The notes beneath the pieces are model-generated. The model was not told the DNA's origin, did no database searches, and saw only the letters and a list, made by a program, of their open reading frames with translations. A DNA stretch of 64,000 nt, taken from Pararhodobacter aggregans (GTDB lineage: Bacteria; Pseudomonadota; Alphaproteobacteria; Rhodobacterales; Rhodobacteraceae). Position 1 is the stretch's first letter, and each line of letters starts with the position of its first letter. This document shows, piece after piece, positions 742-26,519 of the stretch. The DNA is taken from NCBI RefSeq assembly GCF_003075525.1, contig NZ_QDDR01000002.1, forward strand, positions 124,001 to 188,000, given 5' to 3'. The translations under genes were made by a program, and so were the position numbers.

Positions 742-2295
742 TCACGCGCCCCAGATATCCGCGCCATCCACCCAGGTGGTGTGGAAGCCGATCGAGATGC
801 GGCGCGGGATCTTCACCTTGGCGATGGGCCGGGTGATATCCTCGGCATCGAAGATCAGGCAGGCCGAGGACCAATCGTTGGTATCGGTGATGAAGCTGAC
901 CGGATAGGCCCGCCCCTCAGCCCCGTCGCGCCCGCTGCCCTGCGCCGGGGCGACCGGCGCCTCGGAGCCATAGACGCCTTCGCCGTAATCGTAGCGCTGG
1001 GTCGCGCCCGTCTCCAGATCATAGCGCAGCAGGCCGTTGAAGGTCTGGCAGCGCCCTTCCAGCGAGCCCTCCTGCGGCATGGGGATGATCTGGTTGAAGG
1101 AATAGCGCGTCTTGCGGCCCATGAAATGGGCGTTGACGGTCGGAAACTCGGTGTTGCGGTCGTCGATCGGCCCCTCGCGCGTCTCGCCGGTCCGGGTGTT
1201 GAACGACCAGCGGTAAAGGATATGCGAGCGCCGCCTGTAGGCCATCATCGAGGCCAGGTGATGGTCGGCCGGATCCTTGACCGGCATCGGGTCTTCCTGC
1301 CGACAGCCGATCATGTGGACCCAGGGGCCCTCCTCCCAGGCATTGGCGATATGCAGGATGTAGCAGGGTTCGGCCTCGAACCACTGGACCTTCTGCGAAC
1401 GGCCGAAGCGGTCGATCAGCCCGAAGCGGGCGGGTTGGTCGCGGTGGAAGCCCATCACCCGGCGCTTGTGCTTCTTCAGCAGGTCGACGTCGTGATAGAA
1501 GGGCAGGTCGTGCAGGATGGCGTAACTCTCGGTCAGGCCCATGTCATGGGGCGAGCGCGGCCCGGCCAGGTCGATGTCGATATCGAAGACCAGATTGCCG
1601 CTCGCATCCGCCATGCCATAGGACATGTAGGGCGGCTCGTCCTGATAATTGAAGAAGAACAATTCCTTGGAGAAGGGATCGGTCTTCGAATGCGCCGATA
1701 CCGAATGGTGCAGCTTGCCGCCCAGCGTCTCGCGCCCGGTGGTTTCCAGCGTCAGCGGATCGACCGTGTAGGGATCGCCCGCCATGTACCACAACGACAG
1801 AAGACTGCCGTTGTAGAAGATGACATCGGTGTTCGAGACATCCTTGATCGGCGAGCCGGGCAGGCGGAAATCATAGGGCCCCGCCAGGCCCGGCCAGATG
1901 GCGCGGCCCGCCATCTCCTCGACCAGAAAGGCGCCCGAGCGCAGATAGCGCTGGCGGAAACTGGCCTTGCCGTCCCGGAAATAGATCGCCCTGAGCTGCG
2001 CGTCGCCATCGTAGTAATGGTACTTGGAATTGACCGGCTCGAAGCGCTGCGAGGGGCCGTTCATCACATAGGCGCCGCACAGATCCGCCGGGATCTCGCC
2101 CTCGACCTCCAGATCCTCGGCCTCGTATTCGATATCCGTGGGGGCGAAGCCGCCGTGCAGATAGGGGTGGTCGTAGTGCCAGATCCAGTCCGGCGCATCG
2201 GGGGGCGGGGTGCCGTCCGGGGCGTGCAGGCGGACATTGGCCCGCGTCACCGCCAGCGGGGTCTCGTCATGGTCGTGATGCGGGGCGAGGGACAT
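742..2295 (-). CDS. Carotenoid oxygenase family (RPE65/lignostilbene dioxygenase-like) protein 1
   Basis: A 517-residue member of the seven-bladed beta-propeller carotenoid cleavage oxygenase family. These non-heme Fe(II) enzymes split a C=C double bond with O2 to give two carbonyl products. The four expected iron-ligand histidines are visible: S-A-H near residue 202, S-P-H-D near 250, Y-I-L-H near 315 and G-F-H near 505. An ATG 12 bases upstream (2307) is in frame, but its own codons supply GGAGG five bases before the second ATG, so I place the start at 2295. It has no signal peptide and is probably cytosolic. It is divergent from the hydrolase operon at 2533 and is the first of three such oxygenases in the window. 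Family members act on carotenoids, apocarotenoids, stilbenes or phenylpropenes; which one applies here cannot be told. Confidence 0.88.
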   Translation of the reverse strand: MSLAPHHDHDETPLAVTRANVRLHAPDGTPPPDAPDWIWHYDHPYLHGGFAPTDIEYEAEDLEVEGEIPADLCGAYVMNGPSQRFEPVNSKYHYYDGDAQLRAIYFRDGKASFRQRYLRSGAFLVEEMAGRAIWPGLAGPYDFRLPGSPIKDVSNTDVIFYNGSLLSLWYMAGDPYTVDPLTLETTGRETLGGKLHHSVSAHSKTDPFSKELFFFNYQDEPPYMSYGMADASGNLVFDIDIDLAGPRSPHDMGLTESYAILHDLPFYHDVDLLKKHKRRVMGFHRDQPARFGLIDRFGRSQKVQWFEAEPCYILHIANAWEEGPWVHMIGCRQEDPMPVKDPADHHLASMMAYRRRSHILYRWSFNTRTGETREGPIDDRNTEFPTVNAHFMGRKTRYSFNQIIPMPQEGSLEGRCQTFNGLLRYDLETGATQRYDYGEGVYGSEAPVAPAQGSGRDGAEGRAYPVSFITDTNDWSSACLIFDAEDITRPIAKVKIPRRISIGFHTTWVDGADIWGA

Positions 2296-2478
2296 GGCGG
2301 CCTCCATTTGTGTTTATCTAGACCATATGTCGCAATCCGGGGCGCAAAGTCAAGTGAAACGGCCTGCTGTGCCCCTATGCCCCTGGCCGTAAAGCGGTGA
2401 GAGCTTGAGATTGAACGAAAATTGCCGGTTGTTGTGTTCCATCCAGCAAAACATCATTCTGAAAAATAGAGTTTTGCC

Positions 2479-2508
2479 TTGACGGCTTCGCGAATCAAGG
2501 TCTAGGAA
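2479..2508 (+). promoter_or_regulatory. Candidate promoter of catabolic operon A
   Basis: TTGACG at 2479-2484 and TAGGAA at 2503-2508 are separated by 18 bases, just upstream of the hydrolase start at 2533, in a stretch less GC-rich than its surroundings. A GAATCAA heptamer sits in the spacer (2492-2498) and recurs before the second carotenoid oxygenase (10553-10559). Assigned by eye only. Confidence 0.4.
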
Positions 2509-2532
2509 TAGGTATAAAGAGGGGGAGCCATC

Positions 2533-3264
2533 ATGACGACGCTGGTCTGCCTGCCGGGTCTGCTCTGCGAGCCCGAGGTGTTCGACCCGCTGCGCGCGGT
2601 CCTTGAGGCGCGGGGTGCGGCGGTCGACATGCGGGTTCTGGCCCTGCCCGAGGGCGAGGATTTCGACGCGCTGGCCCGGTCGCTGGCGGCGCAGATCCCC
2701 GACGGCGCCGTCCTCCTCGGCATGTCGATGGGCAGCTATCTGGCGCTGCGCATCGCGCTCACCCATCCCGGCAAGCTGGCCGGTCTGGTGCTGATCGGCA
2801 CCAATGCCGCAGCCGATACGCCGGAGGCGGCGGCGATGCGCGGCAAGGTCGCCCGCTGGGCCGCGCGCGAGGGGATGGAGGCACTGGGCGCCAGCCTCGC
2901 CGATACGCTCGTCTCTCCCGCCCGCCGCTCGGACCCGGCGCTGCGCGCGCGGATGATCCGCATGGCGCTGACGCAGGGCGTGGCGCGCTTCACCGCCCAT
3001 CAGAAGGCGCTCGCCGCTCGCCCCGATCAGCGCGGGGATCTGGGGGCGCTGACCTGCCCGCTGCTGGTCCTCTGCGGCAGCGAGGACGGCGTGACCCCGC
3101 TGGAGGCGGGCCGCGCCCTGGCCGAGGCGGTGCCCGAGGGCCGCTGCATCGCGCTGCCCGGCACCGGCCATATGGCGGTGCTGGAGGCGCCGCAGATGGT
3201 GGCTGGCCATGTGACCGATTTCCTGTCCCGGATTGCGACGAACACGAAGGAAGACGCCCGATGA
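2533..3264 (+). CDS. Alpha/beta-fold hydrolase
   Basis: A 243-residue cytosolic alpha/beta hydrolase. The nucleophile elbow G-M-S-M-G places the catalytic serine at about residue 65, an S-E-D-G segment offers the acid, and G-T-G-H-M near the C-terminus offers the histidine. The N-terminal L-P-G-L-L-C is the usual oxyanion strand of the MhpC/BioH-like group. It opens operon A, preceded by a purine-rich AGAGGGGGAG ribosome site, and its stop overlaps the next start as ATGA. It may hydrolyse an ester, lactone or vinylogous diketone in the pathway; the substrate cannot be inferred. Confidence 0.85.
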   Translation: MTTLVCLPGLLCEPEVFDPLRAVLEARGAAVDMRVLALPEGEDFDALARSLAAQIPDGAVLLGMSMGSYLALRIALTHPGKLAGLVLIGTNAAADTPEAAAMRGKVARWAAREGMEALGASLADTLVSPARRSDPALRARMIRMALTQGVARFTAHQKALAARPDQRGDLGALTCPLLVLCGSEDGVTPLEAGRALAEAVPEGRCIALPGTGHMAVLEAPQMVAGHVTDFLSRIATNTKEDAR

Positions 3265-4202
3265 TGCCGAAAGACCGGCTGGCAGCCCTGCGGTTGCCCG
3301 CCTTCGCCGCGCCGATGTTCCTGGTCTCGGGTCCCGATCTGGTGGTGGCCTGCTGCAAGGCGGGCATCGTCGGCAGCTTCCCCGCGCCGAACCTGCGTTC
3401 CAGCGCCGAACTGGGCGCGTGGATGGCCGAGATCGGCGCGCAGCTGACCGAGGCGGATGCACCCTGGGCCCTGAATCTGGTCACCCATTCCACCTCGCCG
3501 CGCCTGCCGGGCGATCTGGAGCAGGTGGCGATCCATCAGCCGCCGATCGTCATCACCGCGCTGGGCAGCCCCAAGCCGGTGCTGGCCACGGTGCATGGCT
3601 ATGGCGGGCTGGTCTTTGCCGATGTCATCTCGGTCGCGCTGGCGAAAAAGGCGGTCGAGGCCGGGGCCGACGGTCTGGTGCTGGTCTGTTCGGGTGCCGG
3701 TGGGCATACGGGCGAGCTGAGCCCGCTGGTCTTTGTCGAGCGGGTGCGCCAGTTCTTCGACGGGCCGATTGCGCTGGCGGGGGCGATCAACACCGGCGAG
3801 GCGATCCTGGCGGCGCAGGTGCTGGGCGCGGATTTCGGCTATATCGGCACGGCCTTTCTGGCGGCCGAGGAAAACCTCGCCAGCCCCGAATACCGGCAGA
3901 TGTGCGTGACCTCGGATGCGACCGACCTCCTGGTCACGCGGGCTTTCACCGGCGCCCGGGCCTCGATGCTGAAACCCTCGATGGTGGCCAAGGGGCTGGA
4001 CCCCGCGGATCTGGAATTCAAGGTCGCCAAGTTCAATTTCACCGGCCGCCAGAACGAGGCCGTCAAGCCCTGGTCGGGGATCTGGGGCGCGGGGCAGGGG
4101 GTCGGCAAGATCGAACGGATCGAGCCCGCCACCGCCATCGTCGACCGGCTGGCCCGCGAATACGAGGCCGCCAAGGCCCGCGCCCGGAGGCTCTGCGCAT
4201 GA
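3261..4202 (+). CDS. Nitronate monooxygenase-like FMN protein 1
   Basis: A 313-residue TIM-barrel flavoprotein of the nitronate monooxygenase / 2-nitropropane dioxygenase family. The start is A-A-P-M-F-L-V-S-G, the usual first barrel strand, and the phosphate/FMN region holds G-A-G-G-H-T-G with the conserved histidine. Members oxidise nitronates or act as NADH:quinone reductases or enoyl reductases, and many remain unassigned. Its placement between a hydrolase and a CoA ligase argues for a redox step in carbon catabolism rather than nitronate detoxification. A close paralogue at 15674-16603 also sits directly before an SCP2-type thiolase, apart from the ligase inserted here. Translationally coupled on both sides (ATGA overlaps). 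Confidence 0.8.
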   Translation: MMPKDRLAALRLPAFAAPMFLVSGPDLVVACCKAGIVGSFPAPNLRSSAELGAWMAEIGAQLTEADAPWALNLVTHSTSPRLPGDLEQVAIHQPPIVITALGSPKPVLATVHGYGGLVFADVISVALAKKAVEAGADGLVLVCSGAGGHTGELSPLVFVERVRQFFDGPIALAGAINTGEAILAAQVLGADFGYIGTAFLAAEENLASPEYRQMCVTSDATDLLVTRAFTGARASMLKPSMVAKGLDPADLEFKVAKFNFTGRQNEAVKPWSGIWGAGQGVGKIERIEPATAIVDRLAREYEAAKARARRLCA

Positions 4203-5887
4203 GCCTGTTCCCGCCCGAGGATTACGCCCGCTTCCGCGCCGAGGGGCATTGGGCCGACATCACCCTGCCGCAGATGGTCGCGGCGAGTGTCGCCCGGGTG
4301 CCCGACCGGCTGGCGCTGGTCGATGCGCCCAATCGCGAAACGCTGTTCGAAGGGGCGCCGAAGCGGCTGACCTATGCCCAGATGGAGGCCGAGGTGGCGC
4401 GCTATGCCGCCCATCTGCAGGCGCAGGGTCTGGGGCAGGGGGCGTTGGTCGCGACGCAATTGCCCAATATTGCCGAGACCTTGCTGCTTTATCTGGCGAT
4501 CAGCCGGATCGGCGCGGTGCTGAGTCCCGTCTCCATGGCCTACCGCGCCGCGGAACTGGCCGATCTGACCCGGGTCGCGGGGTTCGACGCCTTCATCTCC
4601 ATCGGTCACTTCAAGGGCCAGCCCTTCGATCCTGAGCGCCTGAGCGCGCTGCCTGCGAGCGTGCTGCGCCTCGGCATCGGTTCGGGCCTGCCCGACGGCA
4701 TGGCGTCGCTCGACGGTCCGGCGCCCGCGCCGCTGGCCTCTGTCACGGTCGACGCCGACGCGCCCTTCGCGGTCTTCTGGACCTCGGGCACCGAGGGCGT
4801 GCCCAAGGCGGTGCCGAAGACGCACAACAACCTCATGGCCTCGTCGCTGGGGGCCTGGCGGCTGCTGGACCTGCCCGACGGCGCCAATATCCTCGCGCCC
4901 TTTCCCTTCGTGAACGCGGCCGCGGTGGGCGGGCTGATGATGTGCTGGATGCGTACCGCAGGCGCCCTGTTCCTGCACCATCCCTTCGACCTTCAGGTCT
5001 TCCTGCACCAGCTGAAGACCGAGGACATCGCCTATACGATGGTCGCGCCGACGCTGCTGACCTATCTGCGCGATCAGGCAGACGATCCCGGGCTGCGGGC
5101 GGCGCTGCACCGGCTGATCGCGCTGGGCACCGGCTCGGCCCCTCCGGACCCTGAGGTTTTCGTCTTCTTCGAGCAGCATTTCGCCATCCCGGTGGTGAAT
5201 TTCTTCGGCTCGAACGAGGGGGCGCAGATGTGTTCGGCCGCGAGCCGCGTGCCCGACCCGCGCGAGCGCGCCCGCTTCTTTCCCCGCGACGGGGACGAGG
5301 GCTGGGACGCCACCAGCCGCACCGCCAATGGCGGCACCTTCCGGCTGGTCGATCCGGCAAGCGGCGCGGCCGTCACCGAGCCCGGGGGCCTGGGCGAGAT
5401 GCAGCTGCGCGGCCCGGCGATGATGCCCGGCTATTACTCGCGGCTGGGCTATGACCGGACGAAATTCACCCCGGACGGCTATTTCCCCTCGGGCGACCTG
5501 TTCCAGATCTCGGATTGCGGCGGGCTGATCCGCTTCCACGCCCGGGCCCGGGAATTGATCGTGCGCGGCGGCATGAAGATCGCGCCGGTGGAGCTGGACA
5601 ACACCCTCTCGGCCCTGCCCGGGGTGCGCGAAGTGGCGGTCGCGGCCTATCCCGATCCCCGCATGGGCGAGAAGGTCTGCCTTTTCGCCGTGATGCACCC
5701 GGGCCGCAGCCTGACCCTGGCCGAGGTTTCGGATTTCTGCGACCGGGTGGGGCTGGCCAAGTTCAAATGGCCCGAGCGGCTGGAATTCCTGCCCGCCCTG
5801 CCGCGCACCCCCTTGGCAAAGCTCGACCGCAAGGCGCTGGCCAAGCGTCTGGCCGAATCCCAGAAAACCGGAGAGATCCATGCCTGA
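4199..5887 (+). CDS. AMP-dependent acyl/aryl-CoA ligase
   Basis: A 562-residue ANL-superfamily adenylating enzyme, expected to convert a carboxylic acid, ATP and CoA to the acyl-CoA. The P-loop reads T-S-G-T-E-G-V-P-K, with glutamate where threonine or glycine is usual. A G-S-N-E-G motif, a G-D-L-F hinge region and a C-terminal catalytic lysine in P-L-A-K-L-D-R-K follow. Overall form resembles the 2,3-dihydroxybenzoate-AMP ligase / cyclohexanecarboxylate-CoA ligase branch, so an aromatic or cyclic acid is plausible. The ATG at 4199 overlaps the previous stop. The open frame extends far upstream, but that part only shadows the flavoprotein gene. Confidence 0.87.
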   Translation: MSLFPPEDYARFRAEGHWADITLPQMVAASVARVPDRLALVDAPNRETLFEGAPKRLTYAQMEAEVARYAAHLQAQGLGQGALVATQLPNIAETLLLYLAISRIGAVLSPVSMAYRAAELADLTRVAGFDAFISIGHFKGQPFDPERLSALPASVLRLGIGSGLPDGMASLDGPAPAPLASVTVDADAPFAVFWTSGTEGVPKAVPKTHNNLMASSLGAWRLLDLPDGANILAPFPFVNAAAVGGLMMCWMRTAGALFLHHPFDLQVFLHQLKTEDIAYTMVAPTLLTYLRDQADDPGLRAALHRLIALGTGSAPPDPEVFVFFEQHFAIPVVNFFGSNEGAQMCSAASRVPDPRERARFFPRDGDEGWDATSRTANGGTFRLVDPASGAAVTEPGGLGEMQLRGPAMMPGYYSRLGYDRTKFTPDGYFPSGDLFQISDCGGLIRFHARARELIVRGGMKIAPVELDNTLSALPGVREVAVAAYPDPRMGEKVCLFAVMHPGRSLTLAEVSDFCDRVGLAKFKWPERLEFLPALPRTPLAKLDRKALAKRLAESQKTGEIHA

Positions 5888-7115
5888 GCCCGTCTATATC
5901 CTCGGAGGCGCGCAAAGCGACTTCGCCCGCAACTGGTCGCGCGAGGGCTTAGGCATCGATGCGATGATGCGCGAGGTGCTGTTCGAGGGGCTCGAGAATA
6001 CCCGGCTGGAACCGCGCGACCTGCAATCCGTGCATGTCGGGAATTTCGTGGCCGAGCTGTTCTGCGGGCAGGGGCAATTGGGCGGCATGATCGCCTCGTT
6101 GCATCCCGACCTTTCGGGCGTTCCGACCCAGCGGCACGAGGCCGCCTGCGCCTCGGGCTCGATGGCGATGCTGGCGGCTGCGGCCGAGATCGAGGCCGGG
6201 CGCTACGATCTGGTGGCGGTGCTGGGCGTCGAATACATGCGCAACGTGCCGGGCCAGCGGGCGGCCGAGCATCTGGGCGCCGCGGCCTGGGCCGGGCGCG
6301 AATGGCAGGACGCCACCTATGTCTGGCCCGCCGCCTTCGCCGATCTGATCGAGGCCTATTCCGAGAAATTCGGCCACGTCGATTACGCCCATCTGGGCGA
6401 GATCGCGCGGATCAACTACGCCAACGGCAAGCGCAACCCCTATGCCCAGACCCGCAAATGGGACTTCACCGACCGCTCCTTCACCGAGGATGACGCGGCC
6501 AATCCGGTGATCGAGGGCCGGGTCCGGCGCAACGATTGCGGGCAGGTCACGGATGGCGCGGCGGTGGTGTTCCTCGCCTCGGCCAGCCGGGCGGCGGAAT
6601 ACGCCAAGGCGCGCGGGCTGGAGCTGTCCGATCTGGCGAAGATCGACGGCTGGGGCCACCGCACCGCGCCGATGATGCTGTCGGAAAAGCTGGCGGAAAG
6701 CCGCAACGACCGTTTCGTGCTGCCGCATGTGAACAAGGCGATCCGCGAGAGCTTCGCCCGGGCCGGCATCGACAGTCCGTTTCAGCTGGACGCCATCGAG
6801 ACGCATGATTGCTTCGCCATGACCGAATACGCGGCCATCGACAGTTTCGAGATCACCGCCCCCGGCGAAAGCTGGAAAGCCGTCGAGGAGGGGGTGATCG
6901 CACCGGGCGGACGGTTGCCGATCAACCCCTCGGGCGGGCTGATCGGTCTGGGCCATCCGGTCGGTGCGACCGGCGTGCGGATGATGCTCGACGGCTACAA
7001 ACAGGTGACCGGGCGCGCCGGCGATTGTCAGGTCGAGGGCGCCGAACGGGTGGGCCTGCTGAACATCGGCGGTTCCACCACCACCATCGCCGCCTTCGTC
7101 GTGGGGCGCGGCTGA
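5880..7115 (+). CDS. SCP2-type thiolase (acetyl-CoA acetyltransferase family) 1
   Basis: A 411-residue thiolase of the sterol-carrier/SCP-x-like branch. The nucleophilic cysteine lies in A-A-C-A-S-G-S, the second catalytic pair in E-T-H-D-C-F, and the active-site histidine in G-L-G-H-P-V-G-A-T-G. Such enzymes cleave 3-oxoacyl-CoAs to a shortened acyl-CoA plus acetyl- or propionyl-CoA. They often need a DUF35/OB-fold partner; none is encoded nearby. It overlaps the ligase by eight bases and precedes the TRAP transporter. A paralogue lies at 16600-17808. Confidence 0.87.
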   Translation: MPEPVYILGGAQSDFARNWSREGLGIDAMMREVLFEGLENTRLEPRDLQSVHVGNFVAELFCGQGQLGGMIASLHPDLSGVPTQRHEAACASGSMAMLAAAAEIEAGRYDLVAVLGVEYMRNVPGQRAAEHLGAAAWAGREWQDATYVWPAAFADLIEAYSEKFGHVDYAHLGEIARINYANGKRNPYAQTRKWDFTDRSFTEDDAANPVIEGRVRRNDCGQVTDGAAVVFLASASRAAEYAKARGLELSDLAKIDGWGHRTAPMMLSEKLAESRNDRFVLPHVNKAIRESFARAGIDSPFQLDAIETHDCFAMTEYAAIDSFEITAPGESWKAVEEGVIAPGGRLPINPSGGLIGLGHPVGATGVRMMLDGYKQVTGRAGDCQVEGAERVGLLNIGGSTTTIAAFVVGRG

Positions 7116-7176
7116 CAGACGACCCGACCGGGCCCAAGACCCGGACATTTCTTCAAGATCCTGGGAGGAGATCACC

Positions 7177-8169
7177 ATGAAGACGACACTCACCGGCCTT
7201 GCCGCCGGACTGGCCCTGACCCTTGCCACCGGGGCCTCGGCCCGCGATCTGGCCTTCGCGGTCTTCGTGCCCGCGGCCTCGCCGACGGTGCAGCATGTCT
7301 ACCAGCCCTGGGTGGATTGGTTCAACGAACAGGCCGCGGCGGACGACGTGCAGATCACGCTCTATGCGGGCGGGACTTTGGGCCGCAACCCGCTGGCGCA
7401 GGCGCAGATGGTGGCGGATGGCGTGGCCGATATCGGCCTGACCGTGCCCAGCTACACGCCGGGCGTCTATCCCGATTTCGACGTCTTCGAGCTGCCGGGC
7501 TTTGCCCGCAACACCGCCGAGGGTTCGCAGGCGGCGCTGGAACTCTATCAGGAGGGCGCGCTGAGGGGCTACGAGGATTACTACGTCGTCGCCATGTATA
7601 CCTCGGGCGCCTACATGCTGCATTCGCGCGAACCCATCGCCAGCGTGGCGGATATCGAGGGCCAGCGCTTCCGCGTCGCGGGCCAGATCCAGACCCAGGT
7701 GATCGAGGCGCTGGGCGGCGTGCCGCATTCGATGGGCGCGGGCGAGATGGCCGAGGCCATCGACCGCGGGCTGATCGACGGGGCGATGACCGATGCCTCG
7801 GTCGCGCGCACCTTCCGGGTGGCCGATGTGGCGCATAACCACTACGAAAGCAGCCTCGGCGTGCTGGTCTTCTCGATCCTGATGAACCGCGGCGTCTATG
7901 ACAGCCTGCCGCCCCGGGTCCACGAACTGCTGGCGCAATCGGGCCAGTTCATCGTCGACCGCCAGGTCGAAAGCTACGCCCCCGCCATCGAGGCCAATAT
8001 CGCCGCCTGGGCCGAAAGCCCGGACGCGACGCTGGTCGTCCCCTCGGCCGAGGACGAGGCCGAGATCGCGCGGCGCGTGCAGCCGGTGATCGACCGGGTC
8101 GCGGCCTCGGCCAGCGAGGGCCTGATCGAGGCCTATACCGCCAAGCTCGAAGACATCCGCGCCCGCTGA
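7177..8169 (+). CDS. TRAP transporter solute-binding protein (DctP family)
   Basis: A 330-residue periplasmic substrate-binding protein of a tripartite ATP-independent transporter. It begins with a typical Sec signal (K-T-T, a hydrophobic stretch, then G-A-S-A-R-D, cleavage near residue 22). The DctP fold is supported by the G-T-L-G-R-N-P-L region and the basic patch F-R-V-A-G-Q-I-Q, where family members place the arginine that grips a carboxylate. A GGGAGG ribosome site precedes the ATG. The ligand is presumably an organic acid used by operon A. A strong hairpin separates it from dctQ. Confidence 0.9.
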   Translation: MKTTLTGLAAGLALTLATGASARDLAFAVFVPAASPTVQHVYQPWVDWFNEQAAADDVQITLYAGGTLGRNPLAQAQMVADGVADIGLTVPSYTPGVYPDFDVFELPGFARNTAEGSQAALELYQEGALRGYEDYYVVAMYTSGAYMLHSREPIASVADIEGQRFRVAGQIQTQVIEALGGVPHSMGAGEMAEAIDRGLIDGAMTDASVARTFRVADVAHNHYESSLGVLVFSILMNRGVYDSLPPRVHELLAQSGQFIVDRQVESYAPAIEANIAAWAESPDATLVVPSAEDEAEIARRVQPVIDRVAASASEGLIEAYTAKLEDIRAR

Positions 8170-8746: not shown

Positions 8747-8747
8747 C

Positions 8748-19019: not shown

Positions 19020-19951
19020 GCGAGACGCAGGATCTGGACCTGATGCGCGACGCGCTGTCGACCTCGGTGCTCAGCCATGCGCTGAAGCTGATCGGCGACC
19101 GCTGGACCATGCAGATCCTGATGGGCGCCTTCATCGGGGTGAAGCGCTTCGACGATTTCCAGACCCGCCTCAACATCCCCCGCCGGACCCTTTCCGACCG
19201 GCTCAGGGCGCTGGTGGCGATGGATATGCTCAGGCCCCGGCTCTATCAGGAACGGCCCGAGCGCTACGCCTATCACCTGACCCGCAAGGGCATGGCGATC
19301 TACGAGGCGACGCTGATGACTTGGGATTGGGAGCATCGCTTCGGCGAGAACCGCATCGCGCTGCCCTCGCGGCTGATCCACAAGACCTGCGGCCACCGCT
19401 TCCTGCCGCAGCTGGTCTGCGAGCATTGCGGCGAGCCGGCGACGATGCACGAGCTGGACCTGCGGCTGAAGCCGAACCCGCATCTGCCGCATGACACCGG
19501 CGGGCCGGACCGGGCGCCCAAGGTGACCGTCAAGGACGGGGCGATGTCGCATCTGGCGCTCAGGCTCGACCGCTGGTCGCTGATGATCGTGGCGGCGCAG
19601 GTGCTGGGCTGCCGGCATTTCGACCAGATGGCCTATGTGCTGCGGATCAGCGCCCCGCTGCTGAGCCGTCGTCTGGCGGCGATGGTCGAGGCGGGCCTGC
19701 TGACGGTCGAGCAGGACCGCGAGGACGGACGGCGCCGGGTCTATCTGCTGACCCCGGCAAGCCGGGCGCTGTTCCCCTACATCACGCTCCTTTCAACCTG
19801 GGCCAGCGAGCAGCTCTTTCACGAGCCAAGCTCGATCCGCCCCTATCACAAGACCTGCGGCAAGCCTTTCGTGCCGCGCGCGACCTGCGGCCATTGCCAC
19901 CAGCGGCTGCAGGCCTGGGACGTGACTTTCGAAACGGGGCAGGGAACATGA
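19016..19951 (+). CDS. Double-domain HxlR-family regulator with paired Cys/His knuckles
   Basis: A 311-residue protein made of two HxlR-type winged-helix halves. The first covers residues about 12-105 (entry helix with G-D-R-W-T-M). The second covers about 177-265 (L-D-R-W-S-L-M). Each half is followed by the same motif, H-K-T-C-x9-C-x2-C, at residues 122-138 and 278-294, which looks like a zinc knuckle. Ordinary HxlR proteins have about 110-150 residues and dimerise; this one is a covalent pseudo-dimer. It is embedded in operon B with ATGA overlaps on both sides, so it likely autoregulates the operon. The truncated gene at 1-664 has the same design. Confidence 0.85.
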   Translation: MSETQDLDLMRDALSTSVLSHALKLIGDRWTMQILMGAFIGVKRFDDFQTRLNIPRRTLSDRLRALVAMDMLRPRLYQERPERYAYHLTRKGMAIYEATLMTWDWEHRFGENRIALPSRLIHKTCGHRFLPQLVCEHCGEPATMHELDLRLKPNPHLPHDTGGPDRAPKVTVKDGAMSHLALRLDRWSLMIVAAQVLGCRHFDQMAYVLRISAPLLSRRLAAMVEAGLLTVEQDREDGRRRVYLLTPASRALFPYITLLSTWASEQLFHEPSSIRPYHKTCGKPFVPRATCGHCHQRLQAWDVTFETGQGT

Positions 19952-20832
19952 GCAGCCATCTGGAACTTTTTGCCCAACTCACCGCCAATGGCGTCGCCGT
20001 CGGCTCGATCTATGCGCTGGTCGCGCTGGGGATCGTGCTGATCCACAAGGCGACCGAGGTGCTGAACTTCGCCCATGGCGACCTGCTGGTGGTCGCGGCC
20101 TTCAGCGCCTGGGCGCTGATCGACAAGGCGGGGCTGTCCTTCTGGCTGGTGCTGCCGCTGGTGGCGCTGGCCATGGGGGTGCTGGCCTACGGCATCGACG
20201 CGCTGGTGGTGCGCCGGATCGTCGGCCAGCCGCAATTCGCGGGCGTCATGCTGACCATCGCCATCGCCTTCATGATGCGGGGCCTCGTCAGCATGGGGTT
20301 CGGCACGGAATCGCAAAGCTATGACACGCCCTGGACCGGTTCCTCGACCGAGATCCTGGGCATCACCGTGGCCGATCTGTCTTTGGTCATCATGGGGTCG
20401 GTGCTGCTGATCGCGGCGCTGCTGTGGCTTTTCTTCCGCTACACAAGGCTGGGGATCGCCATGCAGGCGGCCAGCCAGAACCAGCTGGCGGCGCATCTGA
20501 ACGGGGTGCGGGTGAAGCGGGTCAATTCGCTGGTCTGGGCGCTGGCCGGGGTCACTGCCGCCGTCGCCGGGATCTTCCTCGCGCCGATCACGCTGGTCGA
20601 TACCTCGCTGTGGCTCATCACGCTGAAGGCGCTGGCGGCGATCGTGCTGGGCGGCTTCGGCAGCCTGCCGGGCGCGGTGATCGGCGGCATCCTGATCGGG
20701 CTGATCGAGCAATACGCGGGCGTCTACCTGATGCATGGGGTCAAGGACATCGCCGCCTATCTGGTCCTGATCCTGGTGCTGATCCTGCGCCCGACCGGGA
20801 TCATGGGCGAAGCCCATGGGCGGAGGGTCTGA
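19948..20832 (+). CDS. livH: Branched-chain-type ABC transporter permease LivH
   Basis: A 294-residue inner-membrane permease with about eight hydrophobic segments and the LivH signature G-S-I-Y-A-L-V-A-L-G near the start, then N-F-A-H-G-D-L. It pairs with LivM and the two ATPases that follow. Liv-type systems linked to acyl-CoA ligases often import aromatic acids or other carboxylates rather than amino acids, and that reading fits here. ATG at 19948 overlaps the regulator stop. Confidence 0.88.
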   Translation: MSSHLELFAQLTANGVAVGSIYALVALGIVLIHKATEVLNFAHGDLLVVAAFSAWALIDKAGLSFWLVLPLVALAMGVLAYGIDALVVRRIVGQPQFAGVMLTIAIAFMMRGLVSMGFGTESQSYDTPWTGSSTEILGITVADLSLVIMGSVLLIAALLWLFFRYTRLGIAMQAASQNQLAAHLNGVRVKRVNSLVWALAGVTAAVAGIFLAPITLVDTSLWLITLKALAAIVLGGFGSLPGAVIGGILIGLIEQYAGVYLMHGVKDIAAYLVLILVLILRPTGIMGEAHGRRV

Positions 20833-20835
20833 ACC

Positions 20836-21912
20836 ATGCGCTTCGACTATCACACGCAGTACCGACAGGGCTTCGCGCTGCTGCCCCACACCAGCGACCG
20901 CGTGCTTTATGGCCTGCTGATCGCGCTCCTGCTGGCGGTGCCCTTCTTCGCCTCGACCTATCTGCTGGGCGAGTTGGGCTATGTGCTGATCCTGTGCATC
21001 GCCGCCATGGGGCTGATGGTGCTGACCGGCTTCACCGGACAGGTGAGCCTCGGCCACGCCAGTTTCGTGGCCATCGGTGCCTATGCCCATGCCTGGCTGA
21101 TGACCCAGGGCCTGCCCTTCGCCCTGTCGCTGCCGCTGGCGGCGCTGATCTCGGCCGGGGCGGGGCTGGTGGTGGGGATCCCGGCGATCCGCGTTTCGGG
21201 CCTGTACCTCGCCATGGTGACGCTGGCCTTTTCCATCGTGGTGGAACAGGTGATCGGCCTCTGGCGCGGGGTGACCGGCGGGTTCATGGGCATGCTGGTG
21301 CCGAACCCCGAGCTGTTGGGCCTGTCGCTGTCCTCGCCCCGCGCGTTCTATTACGTCTGCCTGTTCTTCACGCTGGCGGTGCTGCTGGCGCTCTTGAACC
21401 TGATGCGGTCGGGCATCGGGCGGTCCTTCGTCGGCGTCCGCGATTCCGAGGCCGCGGCCTATGCGCTGGGCATCCCGGTCAAGCGGGTCAAGGTCGGCGC
21501 CTTCGGCCTGTCCGCCGGGGTCACGGGGCTGGCGGGCGCGCTGATGGCGCATCACATCGGCTACCTCACGCCCGACGCCTTCACCCTGCTTCTGTCGCTC
21601 GATCTGGTGCTGATGGTGGTGATCGGCGGCATGGGCAGCCTGCGCGGCGCCATCCTCGGCGCGATCCTCATCAGCCTGCTGCCCCGTGCCGTCGCCGCGC
21701 TGAAGGCGCTGCTGCCGGACGCCATGGCCCGCCAGTCGGGGATGGAGATCTTCGTCGCGGGCGCGGTGCTGGCTTTCTTCGTGCTGTTCGAGCCGATGGG
21801 CCTGAACGGTCGCTGGCTGAAGCTGCGCGCGCTGGGCGAGAGTTTCCCGCTGTATCGCCGCGACACCTTCCGCCGCCAGAAAAGCTACATGCGTTCGGAG
21901 AGAAACCGATGA
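20836..21912 (+). CDS. livM: Branched-chain-type ABC transporter permease LivM
   Basis: A 358-residue permease, the partner of LivH, with about nine hydrophobic segments. The family stretch G-Q-V-S-L-G-H-A-S-F is at about residues 68-77, and the G-G-M-G-S-L-R-G loop near residue 260 contacts the ATPases. The C-terminal 30 residues are charged and cytosolic. It starts three bases after livH and overlaps livG by four. Confidence 0.9.
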   Translation: MRFDYHTQYRQGFALLPHTSDRVLYGLLIALLLAVPFFASTYLLGELGYVLILCIAAMGLMVLTGFTGQVSLGHASFVAIGAYAHAWLMTQGLPFALSLPLAALISAGAGLVVGIPAIRVSGLYLAMVTLAFSIVVEQVIGLWRGVTGGFMGMLVPNPELLGLSLSSPRAFYYVCLFFTLAVLLALLNLMRSGIGRSFVGVRDSEAAAYALGIPVKRVKVGAFGLSAGVTGLAGALMAHHIGYLTPDAFTLLLSLDLVLMVVIGGMGSLRGAILGAILISLLPRAVAALKALLPDAMARQSGMEIFVAGAVLAFFVLFEPMGLNGRWLKLRALGESFPLYRRDTFRRQKSYMRSERNR

Positions 21913-22670
21913 CCGCGCTTCTGGAACTCGACGAGGTGGAACTCGCGTTCGGCGGGCTGGTCGCCATCGGCGGGCTGTCGCTCAGGGTCGACAAGGGCGA
22001 GGTTCTGGCGGTGATCGGCCCCAATGGCGCCGGCAAGACCTCGATGCTGAACCTGGTGACGCGGGTCTTCAACGCGCGGCGCGGGCGGATCCGCTTCAAG
22101 GGGCAGGACATCGCCCAGCTGCCGCGCGCGCGGATCGCGCATCTGGGGATCGCGCGGACCTTTCAGAACATCGAACTCTTCGACGCGGCCACCGTGCTCG
22201 ACAACCTCCTGCTGGGGCGTCACCGCTTCGGCTCGGGCGGCTGGTGGCAGCAGGTCCTGCGCACGCCCGCGCTGACCAGGCTGGAGGAAAGCCACCGCGC
22301 CAAGGCCGAGGAGGTGATCGAATTCCTCGACCTCTCGCCCTGGCGCAACGCCCGGGTGGCGGGCCTGCCTTACGGTGTGCGCAAGGTGGTGGAACTGGGC
22401 CGCGCGCTCTGCGCCGAGCCGGAACTCTTGTTCCTCGATGAACCCGCCTCGGGCCTCAATCCCGAGGAAACCCGCGATCTGGCCTTCTGGATCGAGGATA
22501 TCCGCACCGAACTGGGCATCACCGTGGTGATGATCGAACACGACATGTCGCTGGTTTCGGCCGTGGCCGACCGGGTGATCTGCATGGCGCAGGGCAAGAT
22601 GCTGGCCGAGGGCACGCCCGCCGAGGTGCAGGGCCATCCCGATGTCATCGCCGCCTATCTGGGGACGTAA
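21909..22670 (+). CDS. livG: ABC transporter ATPase LivG
   Basis: A 253-residue ATP-binding subunit. Walker A is G-P-N-G-A-G-K-T-S, followed by a Q-loop F-Q-N-I-E-L, Walker B L-L-F-L-D-E-P, and a switch histidine in V-M-I-E-H-D-M. The signature region reads P-Y-G-V-R-K, a LivG-type deviation from LSGGQ. The frame is open far upstream, but the ATG at 21909 overlapping the livM stop is the sensible start. Confidence 0.9.
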   Translation: MTALLELDEVELAFGGLVAIGGLSLRVDKGEVLAVIGPNGAGKTSMLNLVTRVFNARRGRIRFKGQDIAQLPRARIAHLGIARTFQNIELFDAATVLDNLLLGRHRFGSGGWWQQVLRTPALTRLEESHRAKAEEVIEFLDLSPWRNARVAGLPYGVRKVVELGRALCAEPELLFLDEPASGLNPEETRDLAFWIEDIRTELGITVVMIEHDMSLVSAVADRVICMAQGKMLAEGTPAEVQGHPDVIAAYLGT

Positions 22671-22671
22671 C

Positions 22672-23442
22672 ATGCTGCTGGACGTACAGAATCTGGAAAC
22701 CTGGTACGGCCCGATCGCGGCGATGAAGGGCGTCAATCTGACGGTGGCCGAGGGGCGGATCGTCGCCGTGCTGGGCGCCAACGGGGCGGGGAAGACCACG
22801 CTGCTCAACACACTGGCGGGCGTCATCGACCCGTTCAAGGGGCAGGCATTGTTCCTGGGGCAGCCGGTGCAGGGCCTCGACGCCGATGAGGTGGCGCGTC
22901 GGGGCCTCGTGCTGGTGCCCGAGGGGCGGCAGATCTATCCCTTCCTCACGGTGCGCGACAATCTGATGATGGGCGCCTATGCCCGGCGCGACCGCGACGC
23001 CGTGGCCCGGGATCTTGAGAAGGTGCAGGCGTGGTTTCCCCGCCTCAAGGAACGCGACAGCCAGCACGCGGGGCTGCTGTCCGGGGGCGAACAGCAGATG
23101 GTGGCCATCGGGCGCGCCTATCTTTCCGCGCCGAAACTCCTCATGCTGGACGAGCCCAGCCTCGGCCTGTCGCCGCGTCTGGTGCAGGTGATCTTCACCA
23201 TCATCCGCCGCATCCGCGACGAGACGGGGACCGCGGTGCTGGTGGTCGAACAGAACGCCGCCGTCGCGCTCAAGCACGGCGACGACGGCTATATCATGGA
23301 GCTGGGCCGCATCGTCGCCGCCGACACCTGCGCGGAACTTTCGCGCAAGGAGGACGTGCGCGAGGCCTATCTCGGCGGGCGCGAGGCCGAGGGGCTGAGC
23401 GGCACGGCGCAACGCTGGAAGCGGCGGAGGACCTGGCGATGA
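22672..23442 (+). CDS. livF: ABC transporter ATPase LivF
   Basis: A 256-residue second ATPase subunit of the Liv system, with Walker A G-A-N-G-A-G-K-T-T, signature L-S-G-G-E-Q-Q, Walker B L-M-L-D-E-P and the L-G-L-S-P motif typical of LivF. It starts two bases after the livG stop. The C-terminal basic tail overlaps the acyl-CoA ligase start. Confidence 0.9.
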   Translation: MLLDVQNLETWYGPIAAMKGVNLTVAEGRIVAVLGANGAGKTTLLNTLAGVIDPFKGQALFLGQPVQGLDADEVARRGLVLVPEGRQIYPFLTVRDNLMMGAYARRDRDAVARDLEKVQAWFPRLKERDSQHAGLLSGGEQQMVAIGRAYLSAPKLLMLDEPSLGLSPRLVQVIFTIIRRIRDETGTAVLVVEQNAAVALKHGDDGYIMELGRIVAADTCAELSRKEDVREAYLGGREAEGLSGTAQRWKRRRTWR

Positions 23443-25283
23443 ACGCGATGAACGCGATGATGGAGCATCCCCTGACCTTTGTCGGTCACGCCACCCCGGC
23501 CGGTGTCTTCCGCGCCCGGGCGCAGGAATGGGCGGCGATGCCCGCCCTTCGTCATAAACGGCGGGGCCTCTGGCAGAGCCTGACCTGGGCCGAGTATTAC
23601 GCGCAGGCCCGCGCTCTGGGTCTGGCGCTGGCCGATCTGGGCGTCCGGCGGGGCGAGGTCGTGGCGGTGCTGGCCGAGAACCGGCCGGAATGGGTGATCG
23701 CCGATATCGGCGCGCAGGCCATGGGGATCGTCGGCAACGGCATCTATCCCACCGCCTCGCCCGAGCAGATGCGCTACATCCTGCAAGACAGCGAAACCCG
23801 GGTGCTGATCGTCGAGAACCAGGAACAGCTGGAAAAGGCGCTGGCCGTGCGGGCGGAATGCCCGGCGCTGGTCAGGATCGTGGTGATCGACCCCGAGGGG
23901 CTGCGCAAGCTCTCGGATCCCGATGTCCTGTTCTGGACCGACCTCTTGGCCCGGGGGATGGACCTGGCCCGGACCCGCGCGGCAGAGTTCGAGGCGGCGA
24001 TCGACGCCGGGCGCTCGGCGGATCTGGCGTTCCTCGTCTATACGTCCGGGACCACCGGGGCGCCCAAGGGGGCGATGATCTCGAACGCGAATGCCATCTT
24101 CCAGATGCAGAAGGCGACCGAGTATCTGGACGCCAAACCGGGCGACAAGTCGCTGAGTTTCCTGCCGCTTTGCCATATCGCCGAGCGCATGGCCTCGGTC
24201 TTCAACCCGCTGGCGCTGGGGCTGATCGTGCATTTCCCCGAAAACGCCGGGACCGTGCAGAACGATCTGCGCGAGGTGGCGCCGCATGTGGTCTTCGCCC
24301 CGCCGCGCTTTTGGGAAAAGATGCATTCGGCGGTGGAGTTGTTCCTGCGTGACGCCACCGGCCCGGCCCGCTGGACCTATCGCACGGCGCTGAAACGCGG
24401 TCGCGCCGGGGTCGAGGCCCGGCTCACGGGGGCGGCGCCGCCGCGGCCCGGGCCGCTCGACGCGCTGCTGAACCGGCTGGCCTTCCGCAACATCAAGGTG
24501 TTCCTGGGGCTTCAGAACTGCCGCAGCGCGCTGACCGGCGCCGCCCCGGTGCCACCCGAGCTGATCCGCTGGTTCCTGTCCATCGGGATTGAACTGCGCG
24601 AGGCGTTCGGGATGACCGAAACCGCCGGTTTCGCCGCCTCCACCCCTTCGGGCGGGATCCGGCTGGGCTGGGCCGGCACCGCCGCCGGGGGCACCGAGAT
24701 CCGCATCGCCGAGGAGGGCGAGATCCAGATCCGCGGCCCCAATGTCTTTGCCGGGTACTGGCGGCAGGCCGACAAGACCGCCGAGACGATCCTGCCCGAC
24801 GGCTGGCTCAGGACCGGCGATTGCGGCGAGGTCAGCCCGGACGGCTATCTGGCGATCCGCGACCGGATCAAGGACATCATCATCACCGCGGGCGGCAAGA
24901 ACATCACGCCGACCCAGATCGAGAGCCAGCTGAAATTCAGCCCCTTCATCACCGATGCGGTGGTGATCGGCGAGGGGCGGCGGTTCCTGACCGCGCTGGT
25001 GATGATCGACCTCGAACACGTCAGCCGCTACGCGCAGGAACAGGCGATCCCCTACACGGATTTCGCCAGCCTGACCCGGGCCGAGGGCGTGGTGCAGCTG
25101 ATCCGGGCCGAGATCGAGGCGGTCAATCCCCGCCTCGCCCGGGTCGAACAGATCAAGGATTTCCGCATCATCGACCAGTTGCTGACGGCCGAGGACGAGG
25201 AACTGACGCCGACCATGAAGCTGAAACGCAAGGTCATCGCGCAGAAATACCGACCGCTTATCGACGGCATGTACCCCTCCTGA
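23439..25283 (+). CDS. Long-chain-type acyl-CoA synthetase
   Basis: A 614-residue ANL-superfamily ligase of the long-chain FACS branch, with P-loop Y-T-S-G-T-T-G-A-P-K, S-F-L-P-L-C-H-I-A-E-R, A-F-G-M-T-E-T and the D-R-I-K-D hinge. It probably activates the acid brought in by the adjacent Liv transporter to its CoA ester. The start is one of a cluster of ATGs in a nine-base repeat (ATGAACGCG twice, then ATGATG). The first, at 23439, overlaps the livF stop and follows GGCGGAGG. Transporter-plus-ligase linkage is common for aromatic acid uptake systems. Confidence 0.87.
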   Translation: MNAMNAMMEHPLTFVGHATPAGVFRARAQEWAAMPALRHKRRGLWQSLTWAEYYAQARALGLALADLGVRRGEVVAVLAENRPEWVIADIGAQAMGIVGNGIYPTASPEQMRYILQDSETRVLIVENQEQLEKALAVRAECPALVRIVVIDPEGLRKLSDPDVLFWTDLLARGMDLARTRAAEFEAAIDAGRSADLAFLVYTSGTTGAPKGAMISNANAIFQMQKATEYLDAKPGDKSLSFLPLCHIAERMASVFNPLALGLIVHFPENAGTVQNDLREVAPHVVFAPPRFWEKMHSAVELFLRDATGPARWTYRTALKRGRAGVEARLTGAAPPRPGPLDALLNRLAFRNIKVFLGLQNCRSALTGAAPVPPELIRWFLSIGIELREAFGMTETAGFAASTPSGGIRLGWAGTAAGGTEIRIAEEGEIQIRGPNVFAGYWRQADKTAETILPDGWLRTGDCGEVSPDGYLAIRDRIKDIIITAGGKNITPTQIESQLKFSPFITDAVVIGEGRRFLTALVMIDLEHVSRYAQEQAIPYTDFASLTRAEGVVQLIRAEIEAVNPRLARVEQIKDFRIIDQLLTAEDEELTPTMKLKRKVIAQKYRPLIDGMYPS

Positions 25284-25346
25284 GGCGGCAGGACGGGGAA
25301 GGGAGAAGGCCGAATGTCATTCCGCCAGTTGAACAGGGAGGTTCTC

Positions 25347-26519
25347 ATGACACTGAACAGACGGCAGATTCTGGCCGGCAGCGCCGCGGCTCTGGCTTTG
25401 GGCGCAAGCCTGCGTCCGGCCCGGGCGGCCGGGGTCCATTCGGACGAGATCGTCATCGGCACGCATCTCGACCTGTCGGGTCCGGCTGCGGCCGGGATGC
25501 CCGCGCTGCGCAACGCCACCGAGCTTGCGCTGGCCGAGGCCAATGCCGCGGGCGGCGTCCACGGCCGCCAGATCCGGCTGATCGTCGAGGATAACGGCTC
25601 GCAGCCGCAGCTTGCCGTGCGCGCGGTGCAAAAGCTGATCCGCTCGGACGAGGTGTTTGCCCTGCTGAACCCCTTCGGCTCGGGCACCAATGCCGCGACC
25701 ATCGGTCAGGCGGTGCAGGCGGGGACCGTGGTCTTCGCGCCCTGGGCTGCGTCCTCGGTCATGCATCAGGTCGCGGGCGGATCGGACCTGCTGTTCACCA
25801 CGGTGCAGAACTACAACACCACGATGAACTCGGCCCTGACCCGGATGCTGCCGGAATGGGGCGTCGAGCGGCTGGGCGGGATCTACATGGAAGGGCCCTT
25901 CGGCGACCTGATCCATGCGGGCGTCACCCCGGCGCTGGAGGCTGCCGGTCTGACCGAGGCGGCGACCGCCGCCTATCGGCCCGGCGACATCGACTTCTCC
26001 AGCCAGGTCGCCCGGATGCGCGCGGCCAATGTCGACACGATCGTCGCCGCGACCATCACCCGCGAGACGGTCGGCGTCATGGCCGAGGTCAAGCGCCTTG
26101 GCTGGGACGATGTGCGCGTGCTCACCGCCATTCCGGGCCGTTCGACCGTGGTGGCGCGGCTGGGCGGGGCGGATACCGAGGGGCTCTACGGTGTCGGCGG
26201 CTGGCGTCTGCACAGCGCGGACACGACCGATCCGGGCGCGCGGGCCTTCATGGATGCCTATCAGGCGGCCTATGGCGACATCCCCGACGAGAACGCGGCC
26301 AACGCCTATTCCTACACCAAGTGGTTCCTCGCCTCGCTCGAGGCCGCGGGCGCCGATCTGACCGCCGAAAGCTTCACCGAAGGCGCGCGCCAGACCCGGC
26401 ATTCGGACTTCACCACCTATGCCGAGGCCGGGTTCGAGAACAACCACGCCATGCCCGAACTGGTCTCCATCGACCGGATCGAGGGCGGCGCCTGGGTCCC
26501 GCAGACCGAGCCGTTCTGA
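25347..26519 (+). CDS. Liv-type periplasmic binding protein, Tat-exported
   Basis: A 390-residue type 1 periplasmic binding protein (LivK/HbaE-like) for the ABC transporter. The N-terminus has T-L-N-R-R-Q-I-L-A-G-S, a twin-arginine signal, with likely cleavage after A-R-A near residue 27. The folded part starts I-V-I-G-T-H-L-D-L-S-G-P, usual for the family. An upstream in-frame ATG at 25314 is rejected because GGGAGG sits seven bases before 25347. It is the last gene of operon B, 63 bases after the ligase, and is followed at once by a terminator hairpin. Confidence 0.88.
   Translation: MTLNRRQILAGSAAALALGASLRPARAAGVHSDEIVIGTHLDLSGPAAAGMPALRNATELALAEANAAGGVHGRQIRLIVEDNGSQPQLAVRAVQKLIRSDEVFALLNPFGSGTNAATIGQAVQAGTVVFAPWAASSVMHQVAGGSDLLFTTVQNYNTTMNSALTRMLPEWGVERLGGIYMEGPFGDLIHAGVTPALEAAGLTEAATAAYRPGDIDFSSQVARMRAANVDTIVAATITRETVGVMAEVKRLGWDDVRVLTAIPGRSTVVARLGGADTEGLYGVGGWRLHSADTTDPGARAFMDAYQAAYGDIPDENAANAYSYTKWFLASLEAAGADLTAESFTEGARQTRHSDFTTYAEAGFENNHAMPELVSIDRIEGGAWVPQTEPF

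Follow-up and report, generated by a model that had tools for sequence, protein, structure and literature searches.

The 64,000-nucleotide window of Pararhodobacter aggregans analysed here (contig NZ_QDDR01000002.1, positions 124,001 to 188,000 of the forward strand) carries, at positions 742 to 26519, a real set of co-occurring catabolic genes, apparently not described before, which centres on C=C-cleaving oxygenases of the carotenoid-oxygenase family. The 26-kb stretch consists of two like catabolic modules side by side. Module 1 occupies window positions 1-10409 and continues past the left edge, and module 2 occupies positions 10606-26519 (Table 1). Both modules contain a transporter (of the tripartite ATP-independent periplasmic, TRAP, type or of the Liv type), a double-HxlR regulator, an oxygenase of one clade, a coenzyme A (CoA) ligase, an NMO/FabK-like flavin mononucleotide (FMN) protein and an SCP2-type thiolase, while a FadA-type thiolase is found in module 2 only. 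From the sequences, we estimate a probability of roughly 0.6 that each module serves to break down a conjugated alkenoic compound of non-phenolic type by a CoA-linked route. A lignostilbene reading of the oxygenases is unlikely.

Pfam and NCBIfam profiles recovered every gene family that a first-pass annotation of the region had named, and its layout of two operons and one divergent unit was correct. Overlaps of 1-14 bases between many neighbouring genes give good support to the two plus-strand operons with the divergently oriented oxygenase gene. An alpha/beta hydrolase and two double-HxlR regulators can be added to the list. The carotenoid-oxygenase genes CCO_A, CCO_B and CCO_C are the only three found in the whole genome (5.08 Mb, 32 contigs), and all of them lie in the window.

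The first-pass annotation had treated the region as one 26-kb supercluster for a single pathway, and in this it did not hold. Relatives of CCO_C with at least 80% identity are present in 8 of 17 genomes of the same genus, several of which are incomplete, and seven of these eight were inspected more closely. Six of the seven contain the unit regulator - CCO_A, divergent from hydrolase - NMO1 - ACS1 - THL1 - TRAP transporter. In five of these six genomes (G001, G004, G006, G009, G017) this unit and CCO_B/CCO_C are on different contigs, and a single 26-kb pathway unit was rejected on this ground. The contig continues for at least 39 kb beyond the module 1 unit in four of the five; it stops 3.7 kb after the unit in G004, so that the distance shown there is no more than 3.7 kb and may in fact be greater. 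In G017, a genome of two contigs, the unit is on a contig of 230 kb. Besides the window itself, both units are adjacent in G016 only, and G013 has the unit from CCO_B to the Liv genes with no CCO_A relative among its matches. Because module 1 is usually found on another contig than CCO_B/CCO_C in the genus, the arrangement in the window is best described as a juxtaposition of two modules of one kind. A third unit is present in G013 and G016 (L210, L212), with a CCO_B-like protein (49% identity), relatives of THL3 (50-52%) and ACS1 (32%), a TRAP transporter, a double-HxlR regulator and an NMO protein.

Co-occurrence of the genes in other genomes, which the first-pass annotation had proposed as a check, was confirmed, so that its refuting condition of no co-occurrence in any other genome does not apply. 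A profile of ten oxygenases retrieved at least 588 relatives from genome contigs, and the best 80 of 588 were kept with flanks of up to 10 kb. Partners were searched with tblastn, at least 60 bits being taken as a match; the partner counts are lower bounds because many contigs are short, and phylum names are the labels carried by the loci, many of which are contigs of metagenome-assembled genomes. Among these 80 loci, matches were found to the SCP2-type thiolase (41 loci), ACS1 (38), THL3 (36), the double-HxlR regulator (31), NMO (30), PaaN (15), the lipocalin-like protein (15) and the alpha/beta hydrolase (8), against one match in total for 13 genes from other parts of the window that served as controls. 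ACS2 matched 34 loci at 60 bits and 4 of 77 at 100 bits; because so few loci reach 100 bits, its counts largely reflect cross-matching of ligases.

Three cyanobacterial loci (L100, L102, L113) were dropped because the tree described below places them outside the clade, leaving 77 clade loci. These were compared with 20 outgroup loci from Alphaproteobacteria, whose oxygenases are 21-39% identical to those of the window and in 17 of 20 cases score higher with the lignostilbene dioxygenase LsdA than with any oxygenase of the window; some of them have no tree row of their own (e.g. L179, L192). Of the four core families (SCP2-type thiolase; the second thiolase, THL3; CoA ligase, ACS1; FMN protein, NMO), at least two lie near 46 of the 77 clade oxygenases and one of the 20 outgroup oxygenases (Fisher p 7e-6; the loci are not independent), at least three lie near 25 and none, respectively, and all four near 13 and none. 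At 100 bits, the counts for at least two families are 42/77 and 0/20. Fisher tests at 60 bits gave p values from 4e-6 to 2.5e-4, with the same reservation that related loci are not independent. No outgroup locus had the SCP2-type thiolase, THL3, HxlR, PaaN or the lipocalin, while NMO and ACS1 were each found in three. Control genes matched in one of the 77 clade loci, and a P450 control matched in 3/20 outgroup loci. When the clade loci are restricted to those of at least 14 kb (n=55), 35 have two or more core families. Compact core operons occur in loci labelled Chloroflexota, Bacillota, Actinomycetota and Pseudomonadota, and an oxygenase, the lipocalin-like protein, PaaN and NMO2 remain together in several families. 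Chance clustering is thus rejected by the control-gene and outgroup counts. The set recurs across phyla against controls, so the initial observation is sound, and stronger than could be known from the window.

The three oxygenases match PF03055 at 365-419 bits (cut-off 27). In a quick tree of 114 rows they fall in three separate subclades of one 87-row clade (Shimodaira-Hasegawa-like approximate likelihood-ratio test, SH-aLRT, 99), outside the lignostilbene dioxygenases. The tree was calculated under LG+G4 with SH-aLRT support only, from 114 of 143 rows, after rows at least 85% identical to a kept row or shorter than 380 residues had been left out. Members of the clade come from loci labelled Pseudomonadota, Actinomycetota, Myxococcota, Chloroflexota, Bacillota, Bacteroidota and Hydrogenedentota. 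Its sister is a solved carotenoid 9,10-dioxygenase (9m3e, presumably plant CCD1; the organism was not shown), a weak placement, with support of 83 and a long branch. The same protein is the nearest solved sequence to profile A1 (430 bits, compared to 307 for lignostilbene dioxygenase isozyme I, LsdA). LsdA and L144, a lignostilbene enzyme scoring above the family cut-off, branch elsewhere.

The four iron-ligand histidines are kept in 87/87 clade rows, and at the position of LsdA Phe-59, 76 rows have F and the other 11 have Y. In LSD4 of strain SYK-6, Tyr-101 and Lys-134 hydrogen-bond the 4-hydroxyl of the substrate, according to the available part of the paper (PMC8191317). To locate both residues, we counted along the solved LsdA chain, and the result differs by one from the numbering of the paper. 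The Tyr-101 position is L, I, V, C or M in 86 of 87 clade rows and Y in one, and the Lys-134 position is W in 60, F in 16, M in 8 and Y in 3; the pair is Leu/Trp in CCO_A, Leu/Tyr in CCO_B and Leu/Trp in CCO_C. Among the 143 rows compared, the Tyr-101/Lys-134 pair is retained by LsdA and L144 only. As most of the compared oxygenases also lack it, its absence argues against the lignostilbene mode and names no other substrate. The lignostilbene-alpha,beta-dioxygenase model NF053778 gives 212.9, 212.8 and 250.5 bits (cut-off 800), and together with the tree position and the missing pair this leads us to reject the lignostilbene label for the three proteins. They also score below the cut-off of the 8'-apo-carotenoid 13,14-cleaving family NF052295, with 214.6, 221 and 248.6 bits (cut-off 675). 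The list of stilbene, phenylpropene, polyene and apocarotenoid substrates offered by the first-pass annotation is narrowed: stilbenes or phenylpropenes handled in the lignostilbene way are disfavoured, while a polyene, an apocarotenoid or a non-phenolic aromatic alkene remain.

The model of the module 2 regulator HxlR12 resembles HxlR/MarR-type structures. In contrast to HxlR, HypR and YodB, it has two HxlR units per chain, each followed by HxxC...CxxC, a motif that may bind zinc. In an alignment of 20 rows (A3), which includes regulators from oxygenase loci of Actinomycetota, all rows keep the first motif; in the second, H278, C291 and C294 do not vary and C281 hardly does. The module 1 regulator could be completed in the overlapping locus L143 (387 aa, with an overlong start). 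It matches positions 13-311 of the 315-position double-HxlR model with 188.7 bits and has HxxC...CxxC in the first half and a looser HxC...CxxC in the second. Between this module's divergent genes, an alignment of seven genomes shows inverted copies of CTAGACC/GGTCTAG kept near the two starts and CAAAAC....TTCTG or CAAAAC....TTTTG kept between them. The inverted copies and the near-palindrome (Table 1) may be operator or promoter elements. The window has a single occurrence of CAAAACNNNNTTYTG, whereas 100 shuffles gave none. With one mismatch allowed, GGTCTAGNAA occurs 11 times (shuffle mean 3.2) and is not specific, because nine of the 11 occurrences are outside the divergent promoter. All these patterns were chosen after the alignment had been seen and are a description, not a test.

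Searches that started from genes other than the oxygenases led to the same neighbourhoods. With the PaaN-like protein as query against 398 Pseudomonadota genomes including that of the window (E <= 1e-50), matches were found in 12 of the other 397. The three best (47-51% identity) are surrounded by genes for an oxygenase, NMO, ACS1, thiolase and a double-HxlR regulator. No oxygenase was seen near the remaining nine (40-46%), of which four are beside Liv genes, and three of these nine regions end at a contig edge. The double-HxlR profile gave 15 full-length matches of at least 287.9 bits in the 397 genomes (next best 175.7), and 11 of them are within 10 kb of a clade oxygenase. Conversely, 15 clade oxygenases, here defined by at least 586 bits (next 380) and only partly included in the tree, were found in 13 of the 397 genomes, and 10 of the 15 have a double-HxlR gene within 10 kb, the exceptions being in G476 (two), G287, G227 and G489. 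Distances were read by eye from the coordinates. Scoring covered the few top candidates of a first look in each genome, so that some regulators and oxygenases may have been missed. Two double-HxlR genes were observed at loci with no clade oxygenase nearby: that of L215 (G415) has a Liv operon on either side and is accompanied by a CoA ligase and a thiolase, and that of L217 (G489) is beside an SCP2-type thiolase.

Both SCP2-type thiolases pass their family cut-off and share the same motifs (Table 1), and we take Cys, HDCF and GHP to be characteristic of this type. No DUF35 partner, which some SCP2-type thiolases or aldolases need, was found among the 24 cluster genes of the window by Pfam scan. 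THL3 is a classical thiolase with the thiolase motifs. The NMO proteins are far below the cut-off of the FabK model TIGR03151 (98.1 and 111.8 bits; cut-off 453.1). The lipocalin-like protein is a predicted beta-barrel with weak fold matches only; phenolic acid decarboxylase was considered and rejected, as none was among the 50 fold matches listed, which are mostly weak lipocalins and fatty-acid- or retinoid-binding barrels.

Gene content, conservation, association, clade and ligand residues were computed, and the reactions, their order and the substrate are inferred. The recurring set reads as a CoA-linked route in which oxygenolysis would replace part of beta-oxidation. An organic acid with a conjugated non-phenolic C=C bond would be imported and converted to its CoA thioester, and the FMN enzyme would alter the unsaturation or oxidation state of the thioester. 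The oxygenase would cleave the C=C bond with O2 to two carbonyl pieces, either before or after CoA activation. The PaaN-like dehydrogenase would oxidise the aldehyde piece, perhaps as a CoA ester; in phenylacetate breakdown, PaaN acts on its aldehyde while it is bound to CoA. Thiolases would split the resulting 3-oxoacyl-CoA to acetyl-CoA or propionyl-CoA, and the double-HxlR protein would control the operon. As the substrate, an isoprenoid or apocarotenoid-type acid may be the best single guess, at somewhat less than even odds; an aryl-alkenoic compound without a free para-hydroxyl is slightly less probable, and something else altogether is a lesser possibility. In a more specific version, which we consider improbable, the clade oxygenases would act on CoA thioesters and provide an oxygenolytic bypass where a methyl branch stops beta-oxidation. 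For this, the FMN enzyme would convert a 2,4-dienoyl-CoA to a 3-enoyl-CoA, and cleavage of C3=C4 would yield an aldehyde and a 3-oxoacyl-CoA (acetoacetyl-CoA if C3 is methylated), which thiolases would take directly. This bypass would explain why the shortest operons consist only of a ligase, an FMN enzyme, an oxygenase and thiolases, and would imply isoprenoid or apocarotenoid acids as natural substrates.

Several observations weigh against the CoA-linked route or against its proposed substrates. None of the four core families is found at 11 of the 55 clade loci of at least 14 kb, and PaaN and the lipocalin are each near only 15 of the 77. Four of the 15 double-HxlR genes have no clade oxygenase within 10 kb (G397, where it is 14 kb away, G489, G425 and G415). 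In the cluster of the window, neither an enoyl-CoA hydratase nor a hydroxyacyl-CoA dehydrogenase or acyl-CoA dehydrogenase was found, so that the pathway would rely on other genes, and as some related loci carry an acyl-CoA dehydrogenase (L052) or short-chain dehydrogenases/reductases (SDRs), the short core may be only part of the pathway. The substrate clues conflict. Aromatics are hinted at by the kinship of ACS1 to aryl-acid adenylating enzymes, its nearest solved structures, by importers of the TRAP, Liv and TctC types, which suit small acids, by an IclR protein just upstream (PcaR/PobR family score 123, cut-off 285) and by a VanA-type Rieske protein on one plasmid version, while clade position and residues point away from phenolic stilbenes.

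Related modules were found on plasmids of Cupriavidus and Sphingopyxis. On pRW412b of Sphingopyxis granuli (L117), the module is flanked by IS21 genes on both sides and has the order helix-turn-helix regulator - major facilitator superfamily (MFS) transporter - ligase - NMO - SDR - aldehyde dehydrogenase - hydrolase - TonB receptor - VanA-type Rieske protein - oxygenase - thiolase. The VanA-type protein in this variant is a possible clue to a methoxylated substrate. No clear substrate theme emerged from the neighbours at related loci (TonB receptor, TctC, MFS, SDR, SnoaL-like, DUF1295, acyl-CoA dehydrogenase, luciferase-like and VanA-like proteins). The loci differ in PaaN, lipocalin, hydrolase and type of transporter, which suggests a common core that is adapted to several substrates.

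Among the closest described systems are the lignostilbene pathways of Sphingobium SYK-6 and Novosphingobium (LsdA, LsdD, PinU), in which likewise a catabolic enzyme of the carotenoid-oxygenase family is followed by aldehyde oxidation, according to the available passages (PMC12997858, PMC11323797). In a pathway of this kind, cleavage of lignostilbene, isoeugenol or a vinylphenol would yield aromatic aldehydes, which would be oxidised and then enter ring cleavage. The common superfamily, the aryl-type ligase ACS1, the small-acid transporters and the VanA-type protein beside the oxygenase on pRW412b would fit, but we regard it as unlikely here. The oxygenases reach only 213-250 of the 800 bits required, they are outside the LsdA/L144 branch, Tyr-101 is replaced in 86/87 and Lys-134 in 87/87 clade rows, neither of the two lignostilbene loci above the cut-off (L173, L174) showed a core partner, and the word "thiolase" was not found in the two papers, which deal with lignin dimer pathways. 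In contrast to those pathways, the oxygenases described here belong to another clade and are linked to a CoA ligase, an FMN protein, thiolases and a double-HxlR regulator. A stronger competitor, to which we give a minority chance, is that two or three parallel pathways share parts and that the oxygenases of modules 1 and 2 have unrelated substrates. The different contigs in five of the six other genus genomes with both modules, the three subclades and the differing transporters favour it, but each module has the same enzyme logic and regulator type, and a third module of similar content is present in G013 and G016. It is compatible with the CoA-linked route, which claims no single shared substrate.

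It is very improbable that the genes serve biosynthesis or signalling, e.g. the formation of retinal or another apocarotenoid. Retinal-making bacterial carotenoid oxygenases have been described, as stated in the available part of a review (PMC5133782), but breakdown is the better fit to a set that has two importers, three thiolases, two CoA ligases and an aldehyde dehydrogenase, and related modules are on plasmids. Even more remote is the explanation that the PaaN/Liv part is a phenylacetate-type aromatic operon with the oxygenases as bystanders. The phenylacetate pathway, with PaaN/PaaZ and PaaJ, likewise uses an aldehyde dehydrogenase followed by thiolysis, the PaaN-like protein is just below the TIGR02288 cut-off, and four PaaN matches of other genomes lie beside Liv genes. 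However, the cluster has neither a ring epoxidase gene nor any PaaA/PaaC-family gene. PaaA/PaaC-family genes are found elsewhere in the genome, followed by a separate PaaZ (998.7 bits, cut-off 562.8), so that the PaaN-like enzyme is not needed for phenylacetate, and this function was rejected for it. In addition, its closest relatives co-locate with clade oxygenases, and in several families an oxygenase, the lipocalin-like protein, the PaaN-like enzyme and NMO2 are kept together.

A pathway with this gene set was not found described in the available passages of openly licensed PubMed Central (PMC) papers, in line with the first-pass annotation, and no openly licensed PMC paper was found in which HxlR and a carotenoid oxygenase occur together. 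The available literature passages do not mention a CoA pathway for the bacterial apocarotenoid oxygenases NACOX1, SaCCO and PpCCO, which are also among the closest described systems. The accessible part of a paper on abscisic acid breakdown contained no catabolic genes, and that of a Mycobacterium paper names a carotenoid oxygenase separately from the island described there.

Table 1. Features of the two modules in the window (positions count from the first base of the window).
Feature	Position	Strand	Basis and remarks
Module 1 regulator, double-HxlR	1..777	-	Pfam HxlR on partial frame; start approximate; runs off left window edge
CCO_A, carotenoid-oxygenase family, divergent from module 1 operon	742..2307	-	PF03055 365 bits; in 87-row clade
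Divergent promoter region, candidate operator/promoter elements: inverted CTAGACC (2318-2324) / GGTCTAG (2499-2505), near-palindrome CAAAACATCATTCTG (2447-2461)	2318..2505	.	Alignment of 7 genomes
ABH, alpha/beta hydrolase	2533..3264	+	Pfam; PcaD-like but far under cut-off
NMO1, NMO/FabK-like FMN protein	3261..4202	+	PF03060 84 bits
ACS1, AMP-forming acyl/aryl-CoA ligase	4199..5887	+	PF00501; nearest solved relatives are aryl-acid adenylating enzymes
THL1, SCP2-type thiolase	5880..7115	+	NF004936 617.5 bits (cut-off 375); CAS, HDCF, GHP motifs
TRAP binding protein (DctP)	7177..8169	+	PF03480
TRAP small permease (DctQ)	8234..8746	+	PF04290
TRAP large permease (DctM)	8709..10061	+	PF06808; start may be later
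ABM-domain protein	10071..10409	+	PF03992; tblastn match in 3/6 other genus copies of module 1
CCO_B, carotenoid-oxygenase family	10606..12099	+	PF03055 416.5 bits
CCO_C, carotenoid-oxygenase family	12111..13595	+	PF03055 418.6 bits
LIPO, Lipocalin_5 beta-barrel protein	13595..14005	+	PF13924 100 bits; model confidence (pLDDT) 96.9
PAAN, PaaN-like aldehyde dehydrogenase	13993..15681	+	TIGR02288 571.3 bits (cut-off 578.75)
NMO2, NMO/FabK-like FMN protein	15668..16603	+	PF03060 91 bits
THL2, SCP2-type thiolase	16600..17808	+	NF004936 571.5 bits (cut-off 375); CAS, HDCF, GHP motifs
THL3, FadA-like 3-oxoacyl-CoA thiolase, GTG start	17835..19019	+	TIGR01930 308.5 bits (cut-off 240.55)
HxlR12, double-HxlR regulator, 311 aa, HxxC...CxxC per half	19016..19951	+	PF01638 two stretches, 96.8 bits; alignment A3; model pLDDT 88.9
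LivH-type permease	19948..20832	+	PF02653
LivM-type permease	20836..21912	+	PF02653
LivG-type ATPase	21909..22670	+	PF00005, PF12399
LivF-type ATPase	22642..23442	+	PF00005; start may be later
ACS2, long-chain-type AMP-forming CoA ligase	23439..25283	+	PF00501, PF23562
Liv-type binding protein	25314..26519	+	PF13458 218 bits

To the left of the window, L143 contains the IclR protein, a hotdog thioesterase and an AMP-ligase-like frame, the last named from its sequence, and a GroEL-like frame, also named from sequence, lies near module 1 (L143:9081-10718). To the right of module 2, a P450 frame and a glutamine-synthetase-like frame overlap, next to genes for a class-I amidotransferase and a MarR protein (28997-32971), a run of minus-strand genes resembles a glycogen operon as read from the sequences (33492-46513), and a cobalamin riboswitch is present on the plus strand (57331-57521, 147 bits).

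According to the available part of a review (PMC5133782), it is not well established which roles bacterial carotenoid oxygenases have. In the clade described here, a good share of the members would be tied to CoA-linked breakdown, and the clade argues against annotating them as lignostilbene dioxygenases. As the core operon occurs in loci labelled with at least four phyla, sometimes on plasmids, and no described substrate was found for it in the papers searched, it may represent a missing route in environmental carbon turnover. A single oxygenase clade with a single type of regulator and a short operon offer a clear experimental handle on it.

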